DNA from: Clostridia bacterium
Lineage (GTDB): Bacteria > Bacillota > Clostridia > Christensenellales > Borkfalkiaceae
DNA: 58,647 bases
Direction: 5' to 3'
Assembly (NCBI GenBank): GCA_029066845.1
Contig: JAIEFR010000024.1
Coordinates: 1 to 58,647 of the forward strand
Shown: positions 1,247 through 6,700 of the stretch, piece by piece
How positions within the stretch are numbered: the first letter of the stretch is position 1
How the letters are laid out: the number at the start of each line of letters is the position of its first letter
The notes under the pieces: generated by a model
What the model was told of the DNA's origin: nothing
Database searches by the model: none
What the model saw: only the letters and a program-made list of their open reading frames with translations
Program-made: the position numbers and the translations under genes

Positions 1247-1275
1247 TTGAAAAAATTAAAAAAGTGTGATATAAT
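1247..1275 (+). promoter_or_regulatory. Promoter of the giant surface protein gene
   Basis: TTGAAA (1247-1252), 17-nt spacer, TATAAT (1270-1275) with an extended TGA in front. AAGGAG at 1302-1307 is the ribosome site for the ATG at 1315. Confidence 0.8.
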
Positions 1276-1314
1276 TCCAACACTCAAAGTATTTGTTACG
1301 TAAGGAGAAATATT

Positions 1315-4300
1315 ATGAAGATGTTTAAAATGACCACTGGGGGGGGGCAAGCACTTTTAAGAAATAAGCAAAGTGCCGTAAAGCGCGCGTTGCTTTATAT
1401 ACTCACGCCCATATTCTGTGTCGGACTTTGTCTTGGCACAGTTTTTTCATTTTCAAATAGAGATAATAAGGTAAGTGCAAGCGCGGATGCAGCGGCGGCT
1501 CCCGCTTCTATTTTAAACCTGAACGGTGAATTAAAGACCGCGCTTAAAGGTGGACAGAAGGAAAACGTATATTTCGGCACAAACAACGGCAGCACGGTGA
1601 AATGGCGAGTTTTGGATACGGGCGATAACAACAAGTACGGCAGCGGTATGCTTCTTTGGGCTGATAAACAGGTTGGTGATTGTAAGTATAACCTTCGTAC
1701 CAACGCTGAATACGCGTTCTGGGGAACCAGCTATATTCGCTCGAAGTTAAATGGTCCCTCTGCGCCTTACTATCCTACGATAGGCGGCGGCATCGCTACG
1801 GTCCCAGATGAGGATTCCTGGTACAGCAAACTCTTCAAACCTTACGAAAAGTCGTCGGTGGTGAAGGTATCATATACGACGGACGACTGGGGCTTTGACA
1901 ACTCGTCGTGGCTGGCGGATCATAAGTTTGCATATAAAGATATAGTCGCCGATAATTGGGTTAATGGTAAATATAAAGAGTCTGCACTGGGCACGAGCTT
2001 TGGGCTATACGCGACGGTATCGGACGGAAACGGCGTGCAGGAGCGCACGAACGACTGGCTGTTCTTATTGGACTACTACGACATAAATAACGTAAGTTAC
2101 GGCTTTGTCGATAGTGACGGGAAGACTTACGCCCAAAAGGTTTCGACCGGTTGGGATGCTGCTACCTCGGATTTTTATCCCGGCGATTTCCCTGGTACTG
2201 GTCAAAGTATCGACCCCACCAGGATAGCCGACTATCTGAAATTCACTGACACGAAGTCCTTTTATTGGCTTCGTCCGGCGGGGCGAGTCTATGAAGGGGA
2301 GTCGGCTGGGCTTATGGTTTCTTCGGGTGGTAATGTCACCCGTGGTGTTGACTCGTGGGGGGTACGTCCTGCTTTTAATCTGGAAACGAATAACGTGGTA
2401 TATGCAACGGCTGCGTCGCTGAATTCAATGGGTTCAACGCTGTCGTCGGTGAATACCGCGGCAGCCAATGACGACGGCAAACCGGCATACAAACTGTACA
2501 TAAAAGGCGAAAGTTACGAAGCAAATACTACTTCTGCAAAGTCGTATATGGCGGTGAATAACAGCACTATAACTGTTGCATACAATAACCCCGCAAATAT
2601 TTCAAGCGGCAATTTGGTATTGCTTTTAAGCAAAGCGGACGGTTCGGTTGAGTATCAGGCGGAACGGAGCGTAAGCGGAGTTGTATCCGGACTCAATACG
2701 GTAACTTTCACGCTGCCTGTGAGCGTTACGTACAGCGATTATAACGTTTCGATGCTGTACACTTCCGAATATGACGGCTCTTCGTCCGAAACGGTTCACT
2801 GCTTGTATAAACTGGACAGCCTTTTAAACACGCCGTTCGAATTCAGCACGGAATACAACAACTCGTTAAAGTGGATAACCAATTTGGAAAGTGCGCAAAG
2901 ACCGAGTTGGTATAACGAAAAATTGCACGGCAACAGTGCGTTTGTGTCGGTACAGTCGATAGTGTATACCGACAATATAGGAGCGCACACAAATGAAACC
3001 GTGCAAACTAGCGATGTTAAAGCGGCGGGCACGTACGCAGTTACCTTGCATCTTGCGGAAGGCTTAAAGTGGAGCACGGGCGACAGCGACGACAAGACTT
3101 TCGATTTAGTCGTTGACAAAGCCGACCCTACGGTTACCGCCACTGTGGGCATAAACAACATTTACGTTACAAACGGCTTTCCGAAAAATGGGGACGGAAC
3201 GGCAAACGTAACCAATACGGCAGCCGGCGGCACTCCGGGTACATTCACCTGGAACGTCGGTCAAACGCCGAGTACAAGCACGCCTACGTATACCTGTAAG
3301 TTCACGCCTACCGATATCAACAACTTCAACACCAAGGATGATTGCCCCGTAAGCGTTACTTTTGTAGAGGACGAGGTTACGGGTGTAACTGCAAGCGTTG
3401 CCGTGGACGGTACCGGCACGGATAAGCTTTATACTTCTAACACTCTCGATAAGCTTAAAGCCGCGCCCTTTAGCCTCACAGTTAAACTCGTTCACGCAAG
3501 CGGTTATCAGGAAGAAGCTTCGGATTATACTATAAAGGTATTAAATGACGGTGTGTTGCAGGACTATTTCCACGCGGGCACGAACACCGTGCAGGTGGAA
3601 AGCAACGGCTACGATTGCAGCTTTACCGTTGAAGTTACTGCGGCGGAAATCGACAGTATCAAGGATGTTGACTTTAATCAGAACGGAAGGACCATTTATC
3701 CAAACACCCCTTTGGATAGTATAGAAGACTTGTTTACCGTCAGGGGGTATTGGAATTACAATATAACCAAGTTCGAAACGCTTGATAAGGACAACTTTAA
3801 GCTTGACGGAACTCTCGTTCCCGGTACCGGCACTTCAACTCTTTTCGTAGTGTATACGAAGGGCGGCGCGGAACAAAGATATCCTATTCCTGCCGGTGTA
3901 CTGAATAAAATTACCGTTGATTATCTTACCTACGATATGGACGGCGTTGAGCTGACGGGAGAAAAGACCGTAACTTACGACGGTGACTCGCACGCGCTTA
4001 CTTTGACGGGCACGCTGCCGGACGGCGTAACCGCAGGGAATATAACCTACACCAAGCAGGGCGGCACTCCGACTACGACCGCACCGACGGATGCGGGCAC
4101 TTATACGGTTAAGGTAAGCTTTACAGGCGACACTGTAAATTACAAACCTATAAACGACGTAACCGCAACATTGACCATAAATAAGGCTACGGTTACGGGA
4201 ATTGTTTTCGAGGATGCGGTTAAGCCCGAAATTACGGGAACGACTTACACGCTGGAAGCGACGGGTTATCCTTTGTGGGTAAACGTTACTTACAGCGTAA

Positions 4301-6657
4301 CGGATAAGGACAAAAATCCGCTTACCGGAATATCTTTCAGTGCGGCAGGCACGTATAATTTTACGGCAACTTTCACTATCGACGCCGCGCACGTAAATAA
4401 TTACGAGGCTATAAACCCCATAACCAAAACGCTTACTATATCGGATAAGCCGCCCGTTGACGGCGCGGACGATATAGTTGTGGAGGCTACGATAACCGTA
4501 ACCTATACGGGCTCGCCCGTGGACTATTCGGCAAAGAACGTGCCCGACAGCGTTACTCCTTCCTATACGATAGTAAAAAAGGACGATGCGTCTTTCAGCG
4601 GCACGGACATAATAAATGTCGGCGTTTATACGGTTACTGTCAGCTTCCAGACGCCTGCGGACAAAGCGCCCATTGCAAGCAAGACCTGCGTTGTGACGGT
4701 TGTAAAAGCGACCGTCAATATGGACGGCGTTGAGTTTGCAGACAGGACTGTTACGGGCAACGGAAAGCCGCACAAGGTGGAGGCAACCAATCTGCCCGAC
4801 GGCGTTACGGTTGAGTACGAGTATGGCGGAAAGAAGCAGACGACACCGTTCGAATTTGTTGACGTAGACAAGTACACCGTTAAGGCGCATTTCACTTACG
4901 TGGACGAGAACAACTACGAGCCGATAGATTTCAAAGAAATGACTCTGACCGTAAGCGACGCGGTTGTGGAAAGCATTTCCGCAAAGGTAGAGGACGGCGC
5001 GAAGTTCGATATTAACGGCACGCTTGACGACGTTAAAGCCAAGCTGACCGCAACGGCGCATTTCAACAACGGCACGACGGAGCAAGTCAAAGCCGAAGAT
5101 CTGGCAATCACCTGCGCAACCCTGCGCGACGGCGGCTTGCTGGAAGTAGGCACGCAGATTATTACGGTTACGTACAACGACGGCACGCAGGACTTTACGA
5201 CCACGGTACAAATCGAGGTTGCAAGGGCAAAGGTTGCGCTGCCCGTATACAGCGGCAGTCTTAGATACACGGGCGACGTTTTGAAGCCCGCGGTAAGCGA
5301 CTTTACCGGCTTTGACGGCGCGCTTATGGCGTTTGTGGAAAGCAAGACGGTTGCAGGCTTGAACGTAGGCGCATACAAGGCGGTGTTCGCGTTGAAGGAT
5401 AGTGAACGTTACGAATGGGCAACGACAACGACCTATAAAAAGGCGGTGTTTGCGGCAGTCGCATACGAGGAAGTCGTGCTTGAAGATTACGAAGCGGCGG
5501 TTGACTGGAATCTTGCAAGAGCCAGGATAACTGCAACCAAGGCAAACGGCAAGCTTCCCATATTTGCAAGTGAAAGCTATACGGGTTCGTTCGCGGAAAT
5601 AGTAGGTTTGAAGTACTACACGGACGAAACCTGTGCGGAAGAAATTCCCGCAGACGAGCTTGCGTATTCCACCAAATATTTTGTAAAAGCCGAGCTTTTG
5701 GACACAGCTAACTTCGAGCTTGACGAAACGGCAATGACTTTATCCAAAACGGCGTTCGAATATACTACGCCCGAAAAGCAGCTCACCGTTTGGGAAACGA
5801 TAGTTAAATTCCTTTCCGCAAACTGGCTGTGGATAGTAATTGCGGTCGTTGCATTGATATTGTTAATCACGCTGATTGCCCTGGCAGTGCGCGCGGCAAA
5901 GAGAAAGCGCGAGCGCGAGGAGCAGAGGCTGGCAAAGGAAGAGCGCAAGGAAGAGGAGCGCAGACTGCGCGAAGAAGAACGCCGCCGCGAGGAACGCGAG
6001 GAGCGTATGGCGCGTTTGTCCCAGCCTCAGATGATGATGCCGCAGATGATGCCTCAAATGCCTCAGATGCCCCAGGGTCAGCCCCAGTACGCACCTCAGG
6101 CACCGGCGGCAGGCGGCGGCACGGTTACCGAAGCGCAGTTTATGCAGATGCAGTCCGAAATTGCTACTTTAAAAGCCGAGGCAACGCTCAGGGCGGAGGC
6201 GGCTTTAAGGGCGGAACAGCAGATTGCGCAGACCAAGTCCGATTTGCAGTATGCAAGCATAATGGCACGGCTGGGCGGCGAGCAGTTTGTTCAGGGCGGT
6301 ATATCGCTTGACAAGCTGACCGAGCTTATCAGAACGGAAGTCAACAACGCGTTCGAGAGCAGGGAGAAGAAGGCGGCGGCACCCACCGCGCCCGAAACCA
6401 GTGCGGCAACGCCCGTTGCAACGCAGGTTCCCCCCGATGCGGTTATGACCACGGTGACTACTACCAAGATAGACACGACCAAGAAGCCCGCGCAGCCCTT
6501 ACAGGCAAGCGCGCCCGCTCCCGCAACCAGGACGGTGGTGCGTAACTTCGTTGCGCCTATGCCCGTGGACGACGGAAGAGTGTTCGACGTGGGTGGCTTC
6601 TACACCCCCGCGGACCCCGTTGATTTGGGTATGAACGACGAGGAAAATAAAGACTAA
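1315..6657 (+). CDS. Giant cell-surface protein: DUF6273-like domain, Ig/MBG-like repeats, TM anchor, cytosolic tail
   Basis: A 1780-residue single-gene unit. Order: GGG tract at codons 9-11, a hydrophobic export segment (about 24-46), a DUF6273-like domain at about 55-365 (WRVLDTGDN at its start; YWLRPAG and GVRPAFNL near its end), then about 1,100 residues of beta-sandwich repeats. Several repeats have the MBG-like pattern (TVTYDGDSHALTLTGTLPDG, DAGTYTVKVSF, LTINKA). One membrane helix follows at about 1503-1527, then a very basic/acidic coiled coil, a Met/Pro/Gln-rich stretch and a further alpha-helical cytosolic region, together about 250 residues. There is no LPXTG motif; the protein is held by the helix and projects a tail into the cytoplasm. 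Probably an adhesin or envelope-sensing protein; substrate unknown. The G9 tract could switch it on and off. Confidence 0.85.
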   Translation: MKMFKMTTGGGQALLRNKQSAVKRALLYILTPIFCVGLCLGTVFSFSNRDNKVSASADAAAAPASILNLNGELKTALKGGQKENVYFGTNNGSTVKWRVLDTGDNNKYGSGMLLWADKQVGDCKYNLRTNAEYAFWGTSYIRSKLNGPSAPYYPTIGGGIATVPDEDSWYSKLFKPYEKSSVVKVSYTTDDWGFDNSSWLADHKFAYKDIVADNWVNGKYKESALGTSFGLYATVSDGNGVQERTNDWLFLLDYYDINNVSYGFVDSDGKTYAQKVSTGWDAATSDFYPGDFPGTGQSIDPTRIADYLKFTDTKSFYWLRPAGRVYEGESAGLMVSSGGNVTRGVDSWGVRPAFNLETNNVVYATAASLNSMGSTLSSVNTAAANDDGKPAYKLYIKGESYEANTTSAKSYMAVNNSTITVAYNNPANISSGNLVLLLSKADGSVEYQAERSVSGVVSGLNTVTFTLPVSVTYSDYNVSMLYTSEYDGSSSETVHCLYKLDSLLNTPFEFSTEYNNSLKWITNLESAQRPSWYNEKLHGNSAFVSVQSIVYTDNIGAHTNETVQTSDVKAAGTYAVTLHLAEGLKWSTGDSDDKTFDLVVDKADPTVTATVGINNIYVTNGFPKNGDGTANVTNTAAGGTPGTFTWNVGQTPSTSTPTYTCKFTPTDINNFNTKDDCPVSVTFVEDEVTGVTASVAVDGTGTDKLYTSNTLDKLKAAPFSLTVKLVHASGYQEEASDYTIKVLNDGVLQDYFHAGTNTVQVESNGYDCSFTVEVTAAEIDSIKDVDFNQNGRTIYPNTPLDSIEDLFTVRGYWNYNITKFETLDKDNFKLDGTLVPGTGTSTLFVVYTKGGAEQRYPIPAGVLNKITVDYLTYDMDGVELTGEKTVTYDGDSHALTLTGTLPDGVTAGNITYTKQGGTPTTTAPTDAGTYTVKVSFTGDTVNYKPINDVTATLTINKATVTGIVFEDAVKPEITGTTYTLEATGYPLWVNVTYSVTDKDKNPLTGISFSAAGTYNFTATFTIDAAHVNNYEAINPITKTLTISDKPPVDGADDIVVEATITVTYTGSPVDYSAKNVPDSVTPSYTIVKKDDASFSGTDIINVGVYTVTVSFQTPADKAPIASKTCVVTVVKATVNMDGVEFADRTVTGNGKPHKVEATNLPDGVTVEYEYGGKKQTTPFEFVDVDKYTVKAHFTYVDENNYEPIDFKEMTLTVSDAVVESISAKVEDGAKFDINGTLDDVKAKLTATAHFNNGTTEQVKAEDLAITCATLRDGGLLEVGTQIITVTYNDGTQDFTTTVQIEVARAKVALPVYSGSLRYTGDVLKPAVSDFTGFDGALMAFVESKTVAGLNVGAYKAVFALKDSERYEWATTTTYKKAVFAAVAYEEVVLEDYEAAVDWNLARARITATKANGKLPIFASESYTGSFAEIVGLKYYTDETCAEEIPADELAYSTKYFVKAELLDTANFELDETAMTLSKTAFEYTTPEKQLTVWETIVKFLSANWLWIVIAVVALILLITLIALAVRAAKRKREREEQRLAKEERKEEERRLREEERRREEREERMARLSQPQMMMPQMMPQMPQMPQGQPQYAPQAPAAGGGTVTEAQFMQMQSEIATLKAEATLRAEAALRAEQQIAQTKSDLQYASIMARLGGEQFVQGGISLDKLTELIRTEVNNAFESREKKAAAPTAPETSAATPVATQVPPDAVMTTVTTTKIDTTKKPAQPLQASAPAPATRTVVRNFVAPMPVDDGRVFDVGGFYTPADPVDLGMNDEENKD
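1339..1347 (+). repeat. G9 homopolymer inside the coding start (possible phase-variation tract)
   Basis: Nine consecutive G encode Gly-Gly-Gly at codons 9-11 of the surface protein. With G8 the frame meets TAA within five codons; with G10 it meets TAA within seven codons. Any non-triplet slip would therefore abolish the protein. G runs of this length are well known slipped-strand contingency loci in other bacteria. Confidence 0.7.
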
Positions 6658-6672: not shown

Positions 6673-6700
6673 CCCCGCGGCATTTCGCCGCGGGGTTTAT
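6673..6700 (+). terminator. Rho-independent terminator (convergent)
   Basis: Stem CCCCGCGGC / GCCGCGGGG with an ATTTC loop, followed by TTTATCGTTTT. An A-run on the left side (6658-6665) may let it serve the minus-strand operon too. Confidence 0.85.

Follow-up and report, generated by a model that had tools for sequence, protein, structure and literature searches.

Does the run of nine G near the start of a 1780-aa surface protein gene act as a switch of that gene, and does it stand by itself in the genome? The run (G9) lies on contig C17, a stretch of 58,647 nucleotides hereafter called the window, of a 1.56-Mb Clostridia genome (25 contigs, 99.1% complete). The features of the gene are as follows, where leader A is the leader type described below.

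1247..1275, plus strand: promoter-like site of the leader cassette, TTGAAA (1247-1252), 17-base spacer and TATAAT (1270-1275), read from sequence
1303..1307, plus strand: Shine-Dalgarno-like AGGAG 5' of the ATG at 1315, read from sequence
1315..6657, plus strand: ORF of the 1780-aa surface protein, left open by the assembled G9
1339..1347, plus strand: G9 tract forming codons 9-11 (Gly9-Gly11), the proposed slippage site
1358..1360, plus strand: TAA reached with 8 or 11 G (frame table, position read from sequence)
1365..1367, plus strand: TAA reached with 7, 10 or 13 G (frame table, position read from sequence)
1381..1490, plus strand: signal-peptide-like stretch (KRALLYILTPIFCVGLCLGTVFSF...), kept among leader-A paralogues, by eye with approximate limits
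1432..2694, plus strand: N-terminal ectodomain segment resembling DUF6273, by profile score
5821..5895, plus strand: membrane-spanning stretch (WLWIVIAVVALILLITLIALAV), by eye with approximate limits
5896..6654, plus strand: charged, Met/Gln-rich C-terminal tail, probably cytoplasmic
6673..6695, plus strand: GC-rich hairpin followed by T-rich DNA, terminator-like, read from sequence

Reading frame and position of the G9 tract

According to the frame table, the window ORF is open with 6, 9 or 12 G and ends after 14-18 residues with 7, 8, 10, 11 or 13 G, with the loss or gain of one or two G (7, 8, 10 or 11 G) giving a stop after 14-17 residues. This bears out the original prediction, in which G9 at 1339-1347 formed codons 9-11 in frame with the 1780-residue protein and one G more or less led to an early TAA (both 8 and 10 G stop early). 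The tract had also been named as the longest G run in the window, and it is indeed the sole run of at least 8 G on either strand. GGG makes up 12 of the 127 glycine codons of the ORF, three of these 12 being inside the tract. Dinucleotide shuffles of the window gave a mean of 0.21 matches to G9, and because 16 of 100 shuffles contained at least one such run, the length of the tract alone is weak evidence and only mildly unusual; it is the placement that carries the case. The G9 tract is a homopolymer near the 5' end of the gene, which is the position that characterises translational poly-G contingency loci. The terminator-like hairpin at 6673..6695 means that the gene is probably transcribed alone. 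At positions 1-233 on the minus strand, the window also contains a bacterial large SRP RNA, truncated by the contig edge.

Predicted protein architecture

Searches of Pfam with the whole window protein found no family above cut-off, with the segment at 1432..2694 scoring 18.7 bits against DUF6273 (PF19789, cut-off 23.5), while seven of eight aligned family members matched DUF6273 at E-values up to 1 (best E 1.4e-9). Big_3 Ig-like domains were above cut-off in one paralogue, and an NCBIfam search with four proteins gave no match. A block in the C-terminal tail (PPDAVMTTVTTTKIDTTKK ... RNFVAPMPVDDGRVFDVGGFYTP, also PPDAVMTTVTTTKIDTTKK ... RNFVAPMPVDDGRVFDVGGFY) is almost invariant in 12 otherwise divergent paralogues, which suggests that these may share an intracellular partner, and we infer that the window protein is a membrane-anchored surface protein with a cytoplasmic tail. 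Several candidate similarities were set aside: matches to TMEM51, LYRIC and other Pfam families near the membrane-spanning and charged region were below their cut-offs, comparison with solved structures yielded six weak matches in the charged region, all to one proteasome subunit (E 0.04-0.08), and the predicted structure of the N-terminal ectodomain (8 sequences) was discarded at a mean pLDDT of 41.

Leader tracts in the paralogue family of the source genome

A search of the source genome with the window protein gave 60 matches, corresponding to 24 long ORFs of 1497-1954 aa (measured from the tract, the start or the contig edge), and with one extra leader fragment at the end of C14 the family comprises 25 members. 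The 24 proteins add up to 41,083 aa, about 7.9% of the genome. Leader A (MKMFKMTTGGGQALL..KRALLYILTP and variants) was found on 20 of the 25, namely 19 long ORFs and the C14 fragment, either intact or as remains at a contig edge, and the other five long ORFs have leader B (MKIKRKTF..), which is without the tract. The window gene had been singled out as the one gene suited to switching, a view that does not hold, as about twenty genes of this genome share its leader.

Twelve leader-A tracts are assembled, all at the same codons and 8-12 G long (one G8, three G9, five G10, two G11 and one G12); in the G12 copy and one of the G11 copies the preceding base is also G, and these act as 11 and 10. 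Only the three G9 tracts are in frame and the other nine are out of frame, and all eight out-of-frame genes with an assembled body are open for 1590-1883 codons. The remaining eight leader-A copies are truncated at contig ends, some of them with poly-G noise, and the fragment at the end of C14 (C14:38654) has further frame-breaking differences and a stop close to the contig end. Genome-wide, the G9 pattern gave 106 sliding matches, which were resolved by hand into 12 internal runs and the poly-G noise with which C9 ends and C12 begins. The tracts of Campylobacter are spread across many gene types, whereas here 11 of the 12 internal runs of at least 9 G are at leader-A tracts of a single paralogous family, and the twelfth is intergenic (C12:73041-73050). 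Loss of mismatch repair was considered as a cause and rejected: MutS is present, and hence the tract variation is not simply that of a genome without mismatch repair. Viral contigs were also scanned for a copy of the leader, and none was found.

The leader as a putative exchangeable cassette

The leader-A genes share the upstream promoter block, including the region at 1247..1275, and about 120 bases 3' of the tract, with similarity dropping outside these and a variable 5' UTR between the promoter block and the conserved post-tract stretch. Over 159 pairs within the source genome, the LLYILTPxF codons have a median synonymous difference of 0 (largest 0.75), compared with a median of 0.635 for the last 500 codons. 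Among 16 of the 19 long leader-A members, selected for having most of the leader assembled, leader distance was uncorrelated with body distance (r 0.02, P 0.40), and ectodomain distance was correlated with body distance (r 0.65, P 0.0002). The four-gamete test was failed by 47 of 78 pairs of informative leader sites. The leader type can also differ between species: leader B precedes C10+5585 and C9-161510, whereas L112 (73-74%) and L122 (56-58%), the reciprocal best hits of these two in JAIDIR, have leader A, with tracts that lie unassembled at contig edges. Together this suggests that leaders have been exchanged between paralogues by gene conversion, although part of the signal could come from chimeric short-read assembly across the repeated leaders.

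Leader tracts in related genomes

We expanded the comparison to related species, with one genome per species. A leader-alignment scan of the named genomes gave 24 loci in four MAG records, and three other species contributed ten assembled leader-A tracts, of which three are in frame (G9) and seven out of frame (G10-G11); the ATG of L116 is beyond the contig and its frame state was taken from the flank, while L128 has a further frame-breaking difference close to the contig end. Tract length, counted in these single genomes per species, is thus not fixed, and differs between homologues with their flanks kept, from 8-12 G in the 12 leaders of the source genome and 9-11 G in the ten others. One orthologous pair is C8 of the source genome (G10, out of frame) and L111 of CAMWWA (G9, in frame), which are reciprocal best hits with 89% identity in the ectodomain and a dN/dS of 0.163 over 948 codons.

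A C-terminal profile matched the family in 14 of the 93 genomes of the genus, with copy numbers that are lower bounds given the limited candidates scored per genome. Twenty regions from G010, G020, G021, G040, G074, G075 and G077 contained no run of at least 8 G, and their leaders were type B-like or unrelated to A, with the exception of a tract-less relative in G075. A further type, leader C (..TRIGGG.., for example GGGCALYSVKKEQAKRIGLFTLIMLFFC), is present in G010, G020 and G040; by our reading it is probably homologous to leader A, with a diverged sequence. All seven leader-C tracts are G10-G11 and out of frame, with some of these frame states taken from tract length close to a contig end, and in G040 the leader-C tracts of C95 and C352 are on contigs with the C-terminal domain. 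A leader of G039, related as judged by eye, encodes Gly-Gly-Gly by GGG GGA GGA, so that the run is interrupted; this indicates that the G run is not required for the peptide. In G091 five genes (L293-L297) were recognised by eye as type IV pilin-like, on the strength of the GFTIMELVIVIAVIAVLAAVLIP motif, and each has a tract of G9-G12 in its prepilin leader. Two of these tracts are in frame, and of the three that are not, one belongs to a gene (L294) with another break further downstream. When leader A, leader C and pilin-type tracts are pooled, 8 of 34 are in frame and 26 out of frame, which is compatible with one third in frame (P = 0.15 for at most 8). Of the out-of-frame genes, 18 have 400 or more codons assembled beyond the tract, and all of these but L294 are open (17 of 18).

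Contrary to what was assumed, long G runs are not rare in the genus: 85 of the 93 genomes have runs of at least 9 G. The pattern of a start followed by a tract gave 41 matches in 13 of the 93 genomes, while the control gave 26, likewise in 13 genomes, with G006 alone accounting for 14. A clear excess, 33 to 0, is confined to eight genomes (G000, G010, G020, G023, G040, G065, G078 and G091), which were chosen after the result was seen. Across the order the pattern was not enriched, with 19 matches in 9 of 396 genomes and 17 in 12 for the backward control.

G tracts in promoter spacers

The intergenic G10 at C12:73041-73050 lies in a second type of location, the 17-base spacer between TTGACA and TAACAT at C12:73031-73059 (L053:3032-3060), upstream of an ORF for a lipoprotein-like 587-aa protein. 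Here the G tract is between the -35 and -10 boxes and sets the spacer, as in porA-type switches. Genomes were searched with a matching pattern (TTGAC, 0-6, G8, 1-12, TANNNT), which gave 29 matches at 27 distinct sites in 19 of the 93 genomes of the genus (control 1 match), 386 matches in 79 of 396 genomes sampled from the order (overlapping -10 choices counted separately; control 1), and four matches in 3 of 277 genomes sampled from the class outside the order (control 2). Among the order matches listed, the window's genus left out, 111 distinct sites were typed; the -10 box agrees with TATAAT at five or six positions in 84 of these, and 71 of these 84 have a spacer of 14-20, most commonly 16 among the matches listed. 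By eye, 14 of the 27 sites in the genus precede an ORF with a lipoprotein-like start, and one lipoprotein promoter, orthologous by eye, has spacers of 15, 16 and 17 in three other species.

Reliability of tract lengths and alternative explanations

The contig ends at tracts in L049, L052, L216, L220, L221 and L222 have long poly-G noise on the C-reading strand, probably through two-colour sequencer signal loss at the G run. Tract lengths may also have been misjudged by short-read assembly, and at least 12 of the 50 contig ends of the source genome (hand count) are in or within ~150 bp of a leader, several of them with poly-G noise, all of which would fit length differences that are assembly or PCR artefacts at homopolymers. 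Such artefacts are nevertheless a most improbable source of the pattern as a whole: in seven genomes that were assembled separately (four with leader A and three with leader C), leaders that can be told apart by their flanks have tracts of different length, and errors sit poorly with 26 of 34 tracts being out of frame in front of bodies that are open in 17 of 18 cases. The tract could instead be a neutral passenger, in a leader repeated by duplication and gene conversion where Gly-Gly-Gly is tolerated and switching is unselected, and both the abundance of runs of at least 9 G in the genus and the homogenised leader DNA of the paralogues are in keeping with this. We regard it as very unlikely, since 9 of the 12 tracts in the source genome put a conserved body of 1500-1900 codons out of frame without decay, leader C keeps its tract despite diverged flanks, and tracts recur in the pilin-type leaders of G091.

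The intact out-of-frame bodies would equally be explained by steady low expression, if transcriptional slippage or ribosomal frameshifting still allowed expression of out-of-frame copies and the tract set a level rather than an on or off state. If the tract were a fixed frameshifting site, a single length should be maintained, whereas tract lengths vary among both paralogues and orthologues, and with two stops close behind the tract in both other frames this explanation is unlikely as well. It is highly likely, by comparison of these genomes, that the G tract acts as a contingency switch for phase variation at the level of translation.

Discussion

The best reading of our data is that a multigene surface family may phase-vary by slipped-strand mispairing. 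DNA polymerase would slip on the G run, adding or removing Gs; a run of 9 (likewise 6 or 12) would put the start in frame and the large surface protein would be made, while with the other tabulated lengths translation would stop after 14-18 residues at one of the two TAA codons. As the same cassette of promoter, start, G tract and signal peptide precedes about twenty paralogues of the surface protein, the subset on display would be stochastic in each cell lineage. We infer the slippage rate, its reversibility, and the expression, surface location and function of the family, whereas the tract, its frame logic, its spread over the paralogues and the length differences are read directly from the sequences. 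The proposal of a phase-variable envelope protein is supported at the level of sequence by the differing lengths among paralogues, the intact bodies of OFF copies and the G10/G9 orthologues, and the original prediction was very probably right on the role of the tract and underestimated its scope.

The mechanism is of a known kind. Bifidobacterium breve, like the source of the window a gut bacterium, belongs to a different phylum than the Clostridia. In B. breve UCC2003, the pilus loci bbr_0113 and bbr_1889 are described as undergoing replication slippage at intragenic G tracts, with a range of tract lengths within a population (PMC9187656). As far as that description goes, in both systems the G tract separates a start with a Sec signal from the remainder of a surface protein, with the frame restored at certain lengths only, and they differ in that B. 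breve has two pilus loci in sortase operons where we find about twenty free-standing giant paralogues with one leader. Variation within a population is a feature described for B. breve, the tracts here having been read from assemblies. In Campylobacter, poly-G/C tracts, with a cut-off of 7 or more G, are reported to peak at 9 (53%) and 10 (26%) repeats (PMC6321876), and the source genome resembles the phasome as outlined there in its putative translational poly-G switching, its mostly 9-10 G tracts and its many loci per genome. The porA switch of Neisseria meningitidis is described as a G run between -35 and -10 (PMC3639595), a layout like that of C12:73031-73059 and similar sites in the order and distinct from the tract class of the window gene. 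Unlike porA, the downstream genes are often predicted lipoproteins rather than a porin, and are known here from their sequences.

A literature search, with most subscription journals and preprints outside its coverage, found neither poly-G phase variation in this lineage nor a description of an exchangeable poly-G leader on about twenty giant Clostridia paralogues in an order rich in poly-G promoter spacers. On balance, it seems probable that poly-G slippage is a general regulatory regime of this mostly uncultured order of Clostridia, with promoter-spacer tracts throughout the order (in the window's genus frequently upstream of lipoprotein genes) and, in the clade to which the window belongs, a leader cassette that can be exchanged and that gives about twenty giant surface proteins per genome their independent on and off states. 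The cassette would move by gene conversion, and bodies would thereby gain or lose switchability. We describe a Clostridia genome, from a bacterium that is not known to be a pathogen, with a putative set of switches devoted to one surface-protein family, in an order with many promoter-spacer G tracts. If this is true, such genes would be mistaken for pseudogenes in annotations and would interrupt assemblies, and a single strain would contain a large surface diversity.
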